Source of the DNA: Anaerolineales bacterium
Lineage (GTDB): Bacteria > Chloroflexota > Anaerolineae > Anaerolineales > UBA6663
Reading direction: 5' to 3'
Assembly (NCBI GenBank): GCA_017999235.1
Contig: JAGOBN010000082.1
Location: forward strand, 1 to 10,111
DNA: 10,111 bases
Shown: piece after piece, positions 2 to 9,213 of the stretch
How positions within the stretch are numbered: position 1 is the stretch's first letter
Layout of the letters: the number at the start of each line of letters is the position of its first letter
Made by a program: the position numbers and the translations under genes
The notes under the pieces: generated by a model
What the model was told of the DNA's origin: nothing
The model's input: the letters and a program-made list of their open reading frames with translations, nothing else
Databases searched by the model: none

Positions 2-873
2 ATCGGGGAAACGCCCGTGACCTGGACCGAGCGGCGCCTGTTAGTGCAATCCCTGCGCTATGCCGAAGCCCAGGAAAAAAGCTTGCGCGCTCGCCTCGCT
101 CAGGCGCAAACGGCCTTACTGGCGCTAATCAGCGCGGCCGCGGTCATCGCCGTTATCCGGAAGAAGCTACGCTCCGGGAAGCCGCTGACGCGCTCCTCCA
201 GCAGTATGAAGTGACCGACTTGTTGCAGGTCACGTATCACGCCCAGACCACGGACCGGACCGTGCGCGCTTATGGGGAGCGCCCAGCCCGCACCACTGCG
301 ACTACCGACTATGGCCTCCGGGTGAAAGTCAAAACCAAGCCATTGGCGCAGGCCATTCGGCGTCTCGGCTGGCGGGTCGCAGCGCGTGCCACCAATCAAC
401 CCGTGGCGGACCTGTCCCTCACGCAAGCGATCCTGGCGTATCGACAGCAATATCGGGAAGAGCCAGGCTTCGGTCGGCTGAAAGGCCGCGCCCTGGCGCT
501 GACGCCCATGTATCTCAGTCAGGATCAGCGCGTGGTGGGGTTGATCCGCTTATTATCACTCGGTCTCCGCGTGCTCACCCTGGTGGAGTTCGAAGTGCGG
601 CGTAGCTTGCAGCAGGCGAAAGAGCCCTTGGCCGGCCTTTACGCCGGCCAACCCAAGCGCGCCACGGCCCGTCCGACCACCGAAATGCTCCTGCGCGCTT
701 TCAAAGGCGTCTCGCTCGTCGTACTGCAAACGGGCGCCACGCAGGAACGCCATCTCACCACGCTGACGCCGCTGCAAAAACGCATTCTGAAATTGTTAAA
801 GTTCCCGGCCACGCTCTACACGCGGCTCGAACGCAATTCCTTGAAACTCGCCCCCGAAATGGGCGAACCATGA
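2..873 (+). pseudogene. IS1634-family (IS4-like) DDE transposase, C-terminal part, frameshifted and cut by the window edge
   Basis: This is the C-terminal half of a DDE transposase of the IS1634 group. The frame is open from base 2 (IGETPVTWTERRLLVQSL), so the N-terminus lies outside the window. The first frame is good up to about base 126, where the homologous reading jumps to the frame that continues to the TGA at 871-873. Joined, it reads TALLALNQRGRGHRRYPEEA, so one base seems lost between 126 and 127. The second frame holds the IS4-type Y-R-E-K signature (YRQQYREEPGFGRLKGRAL, about 436-492), whose glutamate should be the third catalytic residue, followed by the typical MYLSQDQR and GLYAGQPKRATARPT stretches. 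Family membership rests on recalled motifs, not a search. The right end of the element must lie near 850-885, but the left end is not visible, so no inverted repeat can be confirmed. It is likely inactive unless the shift is a sequence error. Confidence 0.85.
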
Positions 874-883
874 GGATCAGGTC

Positions 884-1741
884 GTGACGTGTCTCAACAG
901 CCTGAAGGCCTTTGGCGTCAGCCGGCATGAGGCGCAGCGCGCCGGCGTCGCTGATAAGCTGATCTTCTCCGTCGGCACAATCTCCACTTACTGCCAGTTA
1001 AACGTGGTCTTTGCCGAGTGGTGCCGGGACAACTATGGGACACGACGACTGGCCGAGATCACGCCCGAGATGGCAGATGCGTTTCTCGCCGACCGCCGGA
1101 ACCAAGCCCTGTCGCCGGCGACGATCAACACGTATGTGTGCGCCATCAAGAAGCTGGATGTCGGCCTGCGCCAGTTGGGTTGGCGGCGCGAGAAGGCGCC
1201 GCTGCTGGTCGCGGCTCATGACGGCCGGCGCGCCGATGTTATCGCCGATCCGTATTCTGTTGAAGATGCGGAACGTCTGATCACGGCCTTGGCGCAGATT
1301 GATCCTCAATATGGCCAGGTAGCACGTTTGCAGCGGGTAAGCGGGCTACGGATCAGCGAAGCCGTGCATCTTCAGGCAGAGTGCATAGCACCAGACGGGA
1401 GCCGGATCATTTTGGATGGACCAGGCATCCACATCAAGGGCGGCCGGCCGCGGCCGGTGCCGATCCTGCCACAACACCAGGTGTTTATGGTTGAGTTGCT
1501 CACTCAAGAGTCCCCGGACGGGCATGTCTTCATATATAGGCAGTCGCTGGCCACCGCCATAAAACGGGCCACTAGCCGGCTGGTGACCAAACTGGACATC
1601 CAGGTGGGTAGCGGCACCCACTCGTTTCGGAAGCTTTATGCCAATGAATTGTTCGGCTATTTGTGCAGTGAGAAAGCCTTGCCGGCTGAAGAAGCCCAGT
1701 CGCTCCAAGAATACGATCAAGTTGACGCGGCCAGCATTTGA
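884..1741 (+). CDS. Truncated tyrosine recombinase (phage-type integrase) with a HigB-like C-terminal tail
   Basis: The 285-residue product is a tyrosine site-specific recombinase. Residues about 28-105 form the SAM-like core-binding domain (TISTYCQLNVVFAEWCRDNY, LSPATINTYVCAIKKLDVGL). The catalytic domain shows Arg I at R156 (SGLRISEAVHL), the beta-hairpin lysine around K185 (HIKGGRPRPVPI), and HxxR at H246/R249 (GTHSFRKLYANEL). The expected LGH box and nucleophilic tyrosine, normally some 25-40 residues further on, are absent. The protein instead ends QEYDQVDAASI, which resembles the last residues of HigB toxins (consensus THxEYDKIDAxxI from memory). The enzyme is therefore predicted to be catalytically dead. 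I chose the GTG at 884 because GAGG (872-875), overlapping the transposase stop, sits 8 bases upstream. No promoter of its own is visible; transcription could come from the upstream IS. The higA gene follows after 14 bases. Confidence 0.85.
   Translation: MTCLNSLKAFGVSRHEAQRAGVADKLIFSVGTISTYCQLNVVFAEWCRDNYGTRRLAEITPEMADAFLADRRNQALSPATINTYVCAIKKLDVGLRQLGWRREKAPLLVAAHDGRRADVIADPYSVEDAERLITALAQIDPQYGQVARLQRVSGLRISEAVHLQAECIAPDGSRIILDGPGIHIKGGRPRPVPILPQHQVFMVELLTQESPDGHVFIYRQSLATAIKRATSRLVTKLDIQVGSGTHSFRKLYANELFGYLCSEKALPAEEAQSLQEYDQVDAASI
1706..1741 (+). pseudogene. higB toxin remnant: C-terminal tail only
   Basis: The final codons of the recombinase frame encode QEYDQVDAASI and a stop. HigB toxins of the YgjN/RelE-like family end in a very similar string, and that string normally lies just before a higA gene, as here. 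The remainder of a HigB toxin (about 85-90 residues) is missing, so the ribosome-dependent mRNA interferase activity cannot be present. The tail is in frame with the recombinase, which implies a deletion with endpoints near 1700. The match is short, so the call leans on position next to an intact higA. Confidence 0.6.
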
Positions 1742-1755
1742 CAGGAGGCAGCCTA

Positions 1756-2178
1756 ATGAACATTCACCCCATCAAGACCGAAGCGGATTACGAGGCCGCC
1801 CTCAAAAAGATCGAAGCCCTGTTTGCGGCTGAACCGGGCAGTCCGCGCGGCGATGAGCTCGAAGTACTGGTCACGCTGATGGAGGCTTACGAAGAGCAGC
1901 ATTTCGCCATTCCATCACCGGACCCCATCGAGGCGGTCAAATATTTCATGGAAAGCCGTGAACTGACCCGCAAGGACCTGGAGACTTACATTGGCAATCG
2001 GGCCCGGGTTTCGGAGATCCTCAACCGCAAGCGTCCCCTGACTTTGCGGATGATCCAGCGCCTGCACGGCGAGCTCGGCATCCCGGCCGAGGTCCTCGTG
2101 CGCCCATATTCATTACCCAAAACTCGAACCCGCAAAGCGACTCGCGCCAAAACGCGTCTTCCAGCTATACCTGTTTAG
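1756..2178 (+). CDS. higA: HigA-family antitoxin / XRE-type transcriptional regulator, without its toxin
   Basis: The 140-residue protein belongs to the HigA (YgjM-like) antitoxins. The N-terminus (MNIHPIKTEADYEAALKKIE) is the typical toxin-binding part with an acidic helical region up to about residue 50. A helix-turn-helix XRE domain spans about 59-115 (DPIEAVKYFMESRELTRKDL, then NRARVSEILNRKRPLTLRMI, then IPAEVLVRPY). The tail after residue 117 is basic (KTRTRKATRAKTR). In a complete module HigA neutralises the HigB mRNA interferase and represses the higBA promoter. Here only a HigB tail precedes it, so it is an orphan antitoxin or DNA-binding regulator. I chose the ATG at 1756 because GGAGG at 1743-1747 gives an 8-base spacing. 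An upstream in-frame TTG at 1738 overlaps the recombinase stop and would put the SD inside the gene. No promoter is seen in the 14-base gap, so it is likely co-transcribed with the chimeric gene. Confidence 0.9.
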   Translation: MNIHPIKTEADYEAALKKIEALFAAEPGSPRGDELEVLVTLMEAYEEQHFAIPSPDPIEAVKYFMESRELTRKDLETYIGNRARVSEILNRKRPLTLRMIQRLHGELGIPAEVLVRPYSLPKTRTRKATRAKTRLPAIPV

Positions 2179-5277: not shown

Positions 5278-5290
5278 GTAACTACTCACG
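5278..5290. repeat. IS66 left terminal inverted repeat
   Basis: GTAACTACTCACG, inverted partner of 6672-6684 with two mismatches. It contains the expected transposase stop (TGA on the minus strand at 5288-5286). Confidence 0.65.
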
Positions 5291-6637
5291 CCTGTGACGG
5301 CTGAAGGTAAGGCAAAACTGGCTTACCCACAGGGTCACGAGTTTGTGGAAGATATTCTCGCCGGCGCGCTTGGCGGTGTTGATCACGGTTGCCAACGCGG
5401 CATAAGCCTGCGCGCCCCACTCGGAGCGGAAGCTGCCCATAACTTTGCGATGAACCACCAAGGGCCGCAAGGCCCGTTCACTCGCATTGTTGTCGGCCGG
5501 TACGTCCGCTCGGTACAGGAACACAAACAAGTGTTGGCGATGCGTGCGATAGCGTGTCCGCAAATTCTGCGCCAACCGACCGCTCACCGGCCGCGCCAGC
5601 AAGCGATCCAAGCGCCGCTCCAAGGCGGTGATTTGCCGGTGGAAGCCCGCTTCGTCAGGGTGGCGCGGCGCTTACCCAAGTGGACGGCCGCCCGAAACAG
5701 GATCTGGAGTTCCAGCGCCCAGCGCAATCTGGGGCGACGCTCAACACCGCACCTGCCGGTGGGTGCAGGTGTCAAGCCTTGCCAAGCCCGGATCTGATGG
5801 GCCAAACACAACTGCCGTTGCTGCGCCGGGGCATTCAACTGCGGCTTCCAGCAATCACTCACCCAGACTTCCGGCGTGGCGTCACCGATAAACTCGTCAA
5901 TGACGTCTTGGCCGCGGCTTTGCCGGATCAAGTGATACTCGCCGGCGTCGCTGACGAACACCCATTCCCACCAATTGCGCCCCTGCACGCGGCAACTGGT
6001 CTCATCACTCTGGATCACCTGGCTTTGGCGAACTTGGACGCCAATCGCTTCTGCCAACGGTTGCGCCGCTGCACCCGCCCGTTCCAGCACGCTGACTTCG
6101 CCCCCTTCGCTGAGCGGCGTTCCGAAGAGATCGGTCAGCAGCCGTTGCAGGCGCTGAAAACTCAGATGATGCTCGTGATGCAGATACGTGATCGCCGCTT
6201 CCAGCCGGGGTCCGAGATGCCGGTGGGCTTCCAACCCGGCCGGCAAGACCCCGGCTTGCCGACTGGCGCACGTTGGGCAGACCACAATGTGCTGCCGAGT
6301 CTCCAGGATCACTGGCTTGATCTCGGGCTACTCAGTGATTTGTCGGCGGATGATTTGGGCCGGCGTGACTTTCCGAAAATTCGTGCCGCACGCCAGGCAG
6401 TTGGGGACGGGCGCTTCGATCACCGCGTGCGGCTGCTCGACCCACGTCCGCTCGACTTGGCGTGGCCCGGCTTCGCGCCGCGCGGGCGTGGCCGGCGCCT
6501 TTTGCCGATCGGCACATCCGTTTTCTAATCCCGGGCTGGTGGCAGGGACGAGTTTTGCGAAGTCGGCGCGGCAGAATCAGGGCGATCAGTTCGTCGCGGG
6601 ACAAATCTCGCAACCGGTCTGGCTTCGGAAGGGTCAT
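5286..6637 (-). pseudogene. IS66-family transposase (TnpC type), multiply disrupted
   Basis: Reading leftwards from the ATG at 6637, the N-terminus is MTLPKPDRLRDLSRDELIAL, typical of this group. Then a stretch of the coiled-coil region is missing near 6570, and another frame gives PTSQNSSLPPARD-stop-KTDV with an amber at 6527-6525 where tryptophan is expected. A base is lost at 6453/6454 (GHAKS to ERTWVEQPHAVIEAP). A second amber lies at 6330-6328 (IRRQITE-stop-PEIKPV). The core is intact: SDETSCRVQGRNWWEWVF with the first Asp, EVWVSDCWKPQLNAP with the second Asp, and LCLAHQIR. One base is lost near 5656 before DEAGFHRQITALERRLDRLL, which leads to the third catalytic residue in PADNNASERALRPLVVHRKV. 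A final lost base at 5329/5330 hides the expected end GKPVLPYLQPSQA, whose stop is at 5286. It is non-functional as read. Confidence 0.85.
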
Positions 6638-7155: not shown

Positions 7156-9213
7156 TTATGGGTAAAGCTTCAGCGCCATTTCCACGCCGGATTGGCCCGC
7201 GTTACTAGAGCTCGTGCCGCCAGTCCCGGCGACCCCCAAGTGGAAGGTGTTCTCAACCTGGACCAAGCCGGTCACCCGGTCGGCCACGATGCCGATGGAC
7301 GGCCCACCCCCACCGCCACCACCGTCCCCACCGTTGCCACCCGCGCCGCCCACGCCGCCGTCCCCACCCGCGCCGCCGTTGCCACTCGGGCAGGCTACTG
7401 CGCCAAGGCCAGCGCCGCCGCCCGTCCCGCCCTGGCCACCCGGCGCCCCTGCGCCACCCTGGCCGCCGCGGCCGGTCGAGATCATATTGGCCTGGAGTGT
7501 GATGTCGGTGGAGTCCGACAGTAAAACCGCGAAGGAGCCGCCGCCGCCCATCCCACCTGTGCCGCCGCCGCCGCCCGTCCCGCCTGCGCCGCCGCCGCCG
7601 CCGCCGCTGCCGGGGGTGCCAAAGACGGTGAAGCATCCGACCACCGGGGTACAACTCTGATGATTGGCACCACCGCCGCCGCCACCACCGCCGCCACCAC
7701 CGTTGCCAGGCTGTCCATCCAGGCCGTTGTCTCCGCCCGCGGGGGCGTAGAAGCCGGCTGTCACAGTCCCAAACGCCCCCGCGCCCGTGCCCGGCCCGCC
7801 ACTCGCTCCGGCCAGACCGTTTTCGCCTTTCGAGCCTAAGAGTGAAAAGCTTCCGCGGATTCCGCCCGCTCCGCCAGGAGTGCCGATCTGGCCCGGCAGA
7901 CCGTTAAACCCCGAATTGTCGGATGACCCACCCGAACCGCCGCTCCCACCGATACGTTGGACAGAACTAGCGCCGCCCACGCCGCCGCCACCTGCAAAAC
8001 TGCCAGTGCAGACGGCGGGCGCATAGCCAGCCTGCCCAGCGCCGCCCTGGATGCCAGCCAGCCCGGCGGCACCTGCCGACCCGGCGCCAGCATCCCCCGC
8101 GGCCAGCGTGTTGTGCGAAAACACCACCTGGTGACTGCCCACCAAGCGCACCACATACGTACTCTCGCCCGGGGCGGTTGCGCTGGCGCTTCTAAAGATG
8201 AAGCCATCGACCGTGAGATTACTAACCGAGAGGCCTTCCACTGCCGTCGTGGCCCCCGCCACCTGACTTACGTAGGTCGCGGGATTACGGTCCCAATTCG
8301 CTGCACCGCTGTAACCTCCGAATAAATTGACGTTGGAGGCCAGCGTGAGCGATTCGGTATAGATACCAGCCCCCACAAAGACATTGCCGCCGTTGGCGCG
8401 GGCCGCCTCAATGCCTGCTTGGATGGTCAAGAACGGCGCCGCGCGGGTGCCGGGGTTGGAGTCGCTGCCAGCCTGGCTTACATACCAACTGGCCGTGTTC
8501 GCATCGACCACCGTGATCACCACCGCAGCCGGCGCGCTGATCGCCACGCCGTCGCCCACCACGAGGGCAAACGTCAGGATCGCCGGAGTTGAAGGCGCGG
8601 TGAACGTCGGCTGTGCGCCGGCCAGCGTGCCCGTGCCTCCGGTCACATCCACCCCATTGATCTGGGTCCATGTATATACGAGCGCCGCGCTGCCTGTGCT
8701 CGCGCGGCCATCCAGTGTGACCACCGCCCCAAGGTTCACCGTCTGACCCGGTCCCGCGTTGGCGACCAGAGGAACCAGCCGACTCAGAACCGCGACCTGT
8801 GTCTCGAGCGCCTGGGTGCGATCGTAGAGCGCGGCCAGCTCCGGGGTCGCGCCTGGCGCGCCCTGCGGCCCAGTTGGGCCGACCGGCCCGATTGGCCCCG
8901 GGTCGCCCTTGGGTCCCGCCGGCCCCACTGGCCCAGCGTCACCCTGTGGCCCGGTTGGGCCTTGGGGCCCGAGCATATTCCAGCTCACCACCACCTCATC
9001 TTTTCGGCAAGGGCCGTTACCGTCTTCTGCGTGGTGTTTGCTGTCGTCACCCTTAATAAAACTCAGTCCCACTAGACGGAGTTCGCCGCTTTCTTTCTTG
9101 ACGCAGGCCGAAATAAGGTCGTTGCTGGTAGCCTCAGCCCAGCTGGCCGCGCCCAACACTATCACCGCCGTCAACGCAGCTACATATGTCAACCAACGCC
9201 TTTGCCAGAGCAT
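7156..9213 (-). CDS. Secreted modular protein: collagen-like stalk, PKD-like domain, beta-helix with glycine-rich tail
   Basis: The 685-residue product begins with a clear signal peptide ([20 protein letters not shown], then GAASWAEA; cleavage expected near 28). A small domain follows with two cysteines near 37 and 69 ([29 protein letters not shown]), a module often seen before collagen repeats in bacterial proteins. Residues about 82-123 form 14 uninterrupted Gly-X-Y triplets ([20 protein letters not shown]). A short helical neck comes next ([19 protein letters not shown]). A PKD/K319-like domain covers about 150-237 ([29 protein letters not shown]). A DUF1565-type right-handed beta-helix starts near 241 ([39 protein letters not shown]). 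From about 372 to 637 the chain is very glycine-rich, with rung-like strands returning at [20 protein letters not shown] and [20 protein letters not shown]. No anchor or sorting signal is seen at the end (ALKLYP). AAGGAG lies 6 bases before the ATG at 9213. It is probably a trimeric extracellular or surface protein; ligand unknown. Confidence 0.88.

Follow-up and report, generated by a model that had tools for sequence, protein, structure and literature searches.

Orphan antitoxins, some of them left over from degraded modules, are known from 2,253 occurrences in Klebsiella (PMC7192599). Anti-addiction has been proposed as their role (PMC7354431, PMC7192599), with regulation suggested as an alternative (PMC7192599). 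The locus described here lies in a window of 10,111 nucleotides (contig JAGOBN010000082.1, Anaerolineales bacterium; Table 1). Like the orphan antitoxins in the relevant passages of these two papers, it holds an intact antitoxin gene with no working toxin gene adjacent to it. In contrast to them, the window also shows what appears to be the product of the deletion, with 11 toxin codons fused to a recombinase fragment. The passages on orphan antitoxins in both papers describe no such junctions, and a literature search, which is weak evidence of absence, returned no report of a recombinase-HigB fusion.

Two further groups of known systems meet at this locus. In comparison with HigBA modules (PF09907 for HigB and HTH_3 for HigA; structures 5ifg and 5ycl), the HigA is intact and related, and the toxin tail and the spacing are typical, whereas 86 of the 97 HigB codons and, as we infer, the promoter region are missing. 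In comparison with XerC/D-like tyrosine recombinases (Integrase_1 plus Phage_integrase, the family of P0002), the upstream ORF shares the Arg, Lys and HxxR motifs but has neither the LGH box, nor the tyrosine, nor the start. A deletion has probably joined the recombinase gene, which breaks off before the codon for the catalytic tyrosine, to the eleven terminal codons of higB, and has left the antitoxin gene intact.

Table 1. Features at the recombinase-higA locus (positions in the window)
Feature	Position	Strand	Basis or content
IS1634-family transposase remnant in what seem to be two frames (ORFs 17-214, 211-873)	17..873	+	NF033559
5' junction	870..880	+	recombinase similarity from Gln (nt 878-880), equivalent to P0002 residue 7
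Chimeric ORF	884..1741	+	tyrosine recombinase fragment (residues 1-274), HigB tail (275-285) and stop
3' junction, recombinase Leu274 / HigB-derived Gln275	1703..1708	+	recombinase alignment and HigB tails
Final 11 higB codons, QEYDQVDAASI	1706..1738	+	11/11 identical to P0251 and P0236
Ribosome-binding site of higA (AGGAGG), untouched by the putative deletion	1743..1748	+	sequence; 7 nt before ATG
Intact higA antitoxin gene (140 aa)	1756..2178	+	HTH_3, P0037, similarity to solved HigA

The chimeric ORF encodes 285 amino acids and ends with EEAQSL-QEYDQVDAASI. Pfam places Phage_integrase at residues 127–256, where the match to the profile ends at position 140 of 172. A search of 5.8 billion proteins returned 36 matches including the window's own protein. 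The nearest relative, P0002, is 84% identical to the ORF over 96%; among solved structures it had no match at E 0.001. R156 (in SGLR), K185 (in KGG), H246 and R249 (both in HxxR), which we take to be the catalytic residues, are invariant across the 36 aligned recombinases. The alignment thus agrees with a first-pass annotation of this DNA, which had called the recombinase normal through HxxR. The ORF tracks its relatives up to Leu274 and then diverges: the relatives continue with VSQALGHNRIDVLKAY or similar, the window with the eleven tail residues. Beyond the equivalent of Leu274, P0002 carries 28 more residues. The LGHxR...Y motif, comprising the LGH box and the nucleophilic tyrosine, occurs in 35 of 35 relatives and is missing from the window ORF, so that the loss of both elements noted at first pass holds. 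A natural C-terminus of this recombinase subfamily can be ruled out, because the tail terminates none of the 35 relatives. The search for full-length recombinases that naturally end this way, which the first-pass annotation had named as evidence against a fusion, therefore came back empty.

The eleven residues after Leu274 are those of a HigB toxin. In a search with the HigB protein of locus L002 as query, two intact HigBs, P0236 and P0251, end exactly in QEYDQVDAASI among the 120 listed of 1,501 matches. The L002 protein itself ends in QEYDQVDAATV, and its DNA is also similar to the window tail. When the tail DNA was aligned with four loci, L001 matched best, with 33 of 39 nt and a match that extends through the stop codon. 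To score the tail we used a C-terminus matrix built from 107 listed HigBs of 97 residues, which include P0236 and P0251 with the identical tail. On this matrix the window tail reaches 34.3 bits (HigB mean 31.7, lowest 21.5). Of the 15,706 words of eleven residues that the window yields in six frames, no other attains this value, which rules out a chance likeness, and the top-scoring word in the 35 recombinase relatives gives 2.9 bits. Pfam found no match to the RelE-like HigB core (PF09907) in 1640–1738, and a HigB profile, for which an 11-residue tail is too short, found nothing on the plus strand between 900 nt before and 200 nt after the higA start. The assignment of the tail to HigB, made at first pass from its likeness to an EYDKIDA-type string, is thus borne out by a perfect HigB C-terminus, and the lack of profile similarity that would have spoken against it was not observed. 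The junction, placed at that stage within 1640–1760, lies in that interval and can be narrowed to about 1703–1708. The loss of higB was put too low, at about 85%; 11 of 97 codons are kept and 86 are lost (about 89%).

The transition into higA is that of an ordinary operon. Whole higB genes near the HigA family of the window typically end in GTHxEYDxxDAxx[IV], followed by a stop and a short gap, for which 15 nt is the commonest value among whole operons (78 loci displayed). More distant higBA loci differ, for example with a KQYDKINIEEL end and a gap of 1. In the window, the ORF ends in EYDQVDAASI directly before higA, as first described, with 14 nt from the stop to the higA start. The stop codon (1739–1741) precedes AGGAGG (1743–1748), and similar purine-rich stretches stand at the same place in several whole higBA operons. 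The first-pass annotation had held that the long ORF keeps higA translated. This role is unneeded, since higA has its own AGGAGG. HigA itself is an HTH_3 antitoxin of full length that resembles solved HigA (5ycl/5ifg, E 3e-5). Its HTH_3 match is just over the cut-off (23.3 versus 23 bits), it is 93% identical to P0037 (among 120 listed of 5,963 matches), and it shows 2 departures at 69 conserved columns, compared with 0–8 in 33 aligned relatives. The predicted HigA of the window is an orphan antitoxin, without a complete cognate toxin alongside.

The 5' end of the recombinase is truncated as well, a feature absent from the first-pass annotation. Its relatives start with MGSLKYQVVTCLN. The window retains QVVTCLN from nt 878, and the GTG start at 884 corresponds to residue 9 of the relatives. 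Residues 1–6 and the start codon (start region MGSLKY...) are lost, with the cut at nt ~877, and in their place stands the end of a broken IS1634 transposase ORF. ORF 211-873 matches the C-terminal part of NCBIfam NF033559 (profile 344–482 of 483, E 2.4e-26) with 92.8 bits, below the cut-off of 100, and is thus a remnant and not a full-length match. ORF 17-214, for which Pfam gave no credible match, is presumably the preceding part of the same protein, judged by adjacency and by IS1634 sequence. The start of the window falls near or inside this remnant. From upstream to downstream the order is three broken genes, then one intact antitoxin gene. As aligned, neither the start of the recombinase nor its catalytic tyrosine remains. 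The 3' junction is still explained most simply by the single deletion proposed at first pass, and the truncation at the 5' end adds at least one further event.

Since the broken transposase implies that mobile DNA arrived nearby, one may ask whether a segment with the recombinase came from elsewhere and on insertion replaced the 5' part of higB, so that the two genes were never neighbors. We consider this unlikely: such an insertion requires the loss of both recombinase ends plus the 5' part of higB, and a contig on which both genes seem to occur makes simple adjacency enough.

This contig came to light in the protein lists. For P0002, the closest recombinase, and for P0251, one of the two HigBs that share the window's tail, the lists give a contig of 11,308 bases from an Anaerolineales bacterium, with ncbi and nr as sources for both. 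The two listings probably refer to one contig, and because they are shared the recombinase and higB were probably once neighbors. As a control, locus L005, an 18,128-base contig with higB and higA, has that figure in both protein lists (P0100 and P0175). For locus L001, HigB is listed with its 35,147-base contig and HigA (P0052) with a 1,940-base contig instead, so the contig column is incomplete. For this reason it says little that no HigA on the 11,308-base contig stands among the 120 listed of 5,963 matches. Comparison of 36 recombinase with 120 listed HigB contigs gave two coinciding values, 11,308 and 1,108 bases, of which the second, being so short, may be chance.

An assembly artefact, in which recombinase and higBA read paths were joined although they are adjacent in no cell, has to be weighed against these listings. 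The window may derive from a metagenome, and misjoins are frequent in regions of mobile genes. The chimeric protein nevertheless occurs on 2 contigs, if possibly non-independent ones, a related Anaerolineales contig appears to carry both genes, and the junction preserves the reading frame and leaves the higA signals untouched. On balance an artefact is quite improbable.

Other collections gave no close counterpart. Among the fetched stretches of 123 higA loci there was no close relative of the window recombinase, only two weak matches (L066 and L086). No relative was found in genome_contigs or in viral_contigs, the recombinase search in phages returned none, and a search of 20 genomes of higA loci gave one match at 29% and none close. 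Against plasmids, the window DNA matched only higA-like sequence. The sole plasmid protein match was a distant (25%) recombinase relative on HG796340.1 (2065–2955; 3.6 kb, uncultured bacterium). In five sets of kin genomes (396, 400, 400, 6 and 370 genomes; the second 400-genome set and the 370-genome set are largely identical), the thresholds used returned 2, 2, 3, 2 and 2 recombinase matches, and no close relative was found beside higBA. The best of these (L129) is 64% identical to P0002, with neither HigB nor HigA in the 3,253 bases fetched. At L066 (1720–2988), an intact-looking tyrosine recombinase of another branch stands before a full-length higB with a gap of 30 nt (recombinase ORF end 2664, higB start 2695). 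The ancestral order of recombinase, spacer, higB and higA that the first-pass annotation had posited is thus supported by the shared 11,308-base listing, although none of the 123 higA loci shows it with a close recombinase.

We interpret the locus as the scar of one deletion in an ancestral recombinase-spacer-higB-higA arrangement, which left an orphan higA, and put the probability of this reading at roughly 0.85. The deletion would have taken ~28 codons from the end of the recombinase gene, 86 of the 97 higB codons and, between them, the spacer that held the higBA promoter. Behind the fused higB tail follow the normal spacer, the ribosome-binding site and intact higA. The reading frame would have been kept by chance. 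The in-frame join described at first pass is observed, and with a chance of 1 in 3 it needs no special reason; selection for frame retention was dropped on this ground, and one other tail locus in frame was seen (L065). The chimera should be no working recombinase, because it has no tyrosine, and no toxin, because the HigB fold is gone. That recombinase and toxin were both disarmed while the antitoxin stayed intact, as the first-pass annotation had it, agrees with the absent tyrosine, the missing HigB codons and the whole higA. HigA would be translatable from its own ribosome-binding site as an orphan antitoxin. Its transcription would depend on read-through from upstream, because the deletion should have removed the usual promoter in front of higB. 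The gene would survive the toxin deletion because a lone antitoxin is harmless, so that HigA would tolerate the loss of its partner, and the surviving HigA may still be useful, for example against HigB arriving on plasmids.

The cut in the recombinase looks recent, with no sign of long decay in its sequence. At 71 conserved columns the fragment shows 2 departures; since one of them falls on the first tail residue, the recombinase part has 1 of 70. These counts cover 31 of 36 alignment rows, with five short ones left out. Close relatives have 0–4 departures, more distant ones up to 30. The end branch of the fragment is 0.081, compared with 0.15 for P0002 and a median of 0.16. That all 285 codons are open and unusual residues are not in excess could also point to a chimera that works and is retained, for example as a DNA-binding regulator of the locus, with the fusion under selection. 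We regard this as very improbable, since an open frame is expected anyway after a recent deletion, the protein has lost its own start region and catalytic tyrosine, a single allele is known, and a search of 700–2450, limited to the sigma-70 type, found no promoter-like site.

We then asked how often related antitoxins stand without their toxin. Of 177 confirmed HigA loci in the genome collection, the best 80 were kept and classed by a HigB profile built from 32 of them, followed by the C-terminus matrix. Full-length HigB in one frame is present in 52 of these 80 (L057 is ~11 residues short inside). HigB is cut by the contig end in one (L023) and split by a stop or frameshift in two (L064, L079). 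By profile only the tail remains in eight (L015, L020, L025, L026, L039, L041, L065 and L073) and only the N-terminus in two (L004, L061), and the profile is blank at 15. Among these 15 the matrix adds two tails, L045 (22.0 bits, 11 codons) and the weaker L055 (11.6 bits); the other 13 give at most 1.05 bits. No intact HigB is thus found in 27 of the best 80 of 177 loci, and 10 of the 27 hold a tail remnant. The window, outside the 80, is the eleventh tail case. Excluded from these counts are 43 loci of the viral collection, which are more distant and include many near-copies. Of these, 37 have a near full-length HigB, L094 has a split HigB, L091 has a HigB tail with HigA itself cut short (67 residues), and L083, L093, L095 and L123 have no HigB, three of the four with HigA partly matched.

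On a HigA tree of 81 rows (127 columns; 40 of 77 inner branches open), loss of intact HigB takes 22 changes, at least 8 of them forced by well-supported branches, and the tail state takes 10, at least 5 forced. This indicates many separate losses of the toxin, with the antitoxin kept, among related HigA loci, at least as read from a sample drawn by similarity to the window HigA, in which loss of higA is invisible. For the reverse view, HigB was searched in 201 genomes, which gave 51 places in 38 genomes, 30 of which were fetched; the 21 others include two with an internal stop as well as fragments. A HigA match of at least 67 bits lies within ~100 nt downstream in 27 of the 30. L158 and L160 have no HigA match and L159 a weak partial one; these three are distant HigBs (43–46% identical), whose partners the HigA profile may miss. 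HigA without HigB looks common and HigB without HigA rare, in two samples that differ in breadth, as expected of an antitoxin versus a toxin.

Two loci of the survey carry fusions of their own. At L004 (2908–3435), approximately the first 28 HigB residues are fused in frame to a whole HigA, another route of toxin loss. At L065 (2080–2991), a 303-residue ORF ends in the last ~40 HigB residues (PF09907, profile 36–74) before an intact higA, and here too a HigB tail is fused in frame to a gene unrelated to it. For the N-terminal ~255 residues Pfam gave no family at E 0.001. Of the 10 genome loci with a tail remnant besides the window, L065 alone was seen in frame with a long upstream ORF.

An orphan antitoxin that arises by toxin deletion is an ordinary, known kind of decay; here the junction is clearly readable. 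The window is an unusually clean case of the disarming of a toxin-antitoxin module, with the toxin removed and the antitoxin and its translation signals spared. Tentatively, we surmise that higB loss with higA retention is a repeated evolutionary route in this family and that selection maintains the HigA left behind, for example because it guards against mobile elements that carry HigB or acts as a regulator. If this rather speculative proposal is true, its visible signature would be deletions that, like the one proposed here, end before they reach the ribosome-binding site of higA. Such loci make it possible to test why antitoxins outlive their toxins, through a comparison of how HigA evolves before the toxin is lost and afterwards.

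The rest of the window carries further genes on the minus strand. Two ORFs at 5282–6312 correspond to positions 56–273 and 289–382 of 387 in an IS66 transposase profile, and this copy is probably frameshifted. Between 2840 and 5109 lie a DUF4287/DUF5655 protein, a sigma-70-like protein with DUF6596 and a YCII protein. The ORF at 7156–9213 encodes a 685-residue protein with glycine-rich repeats, weak collagen-like matches and a PKD-like domain, which is perhaps a surface protein.
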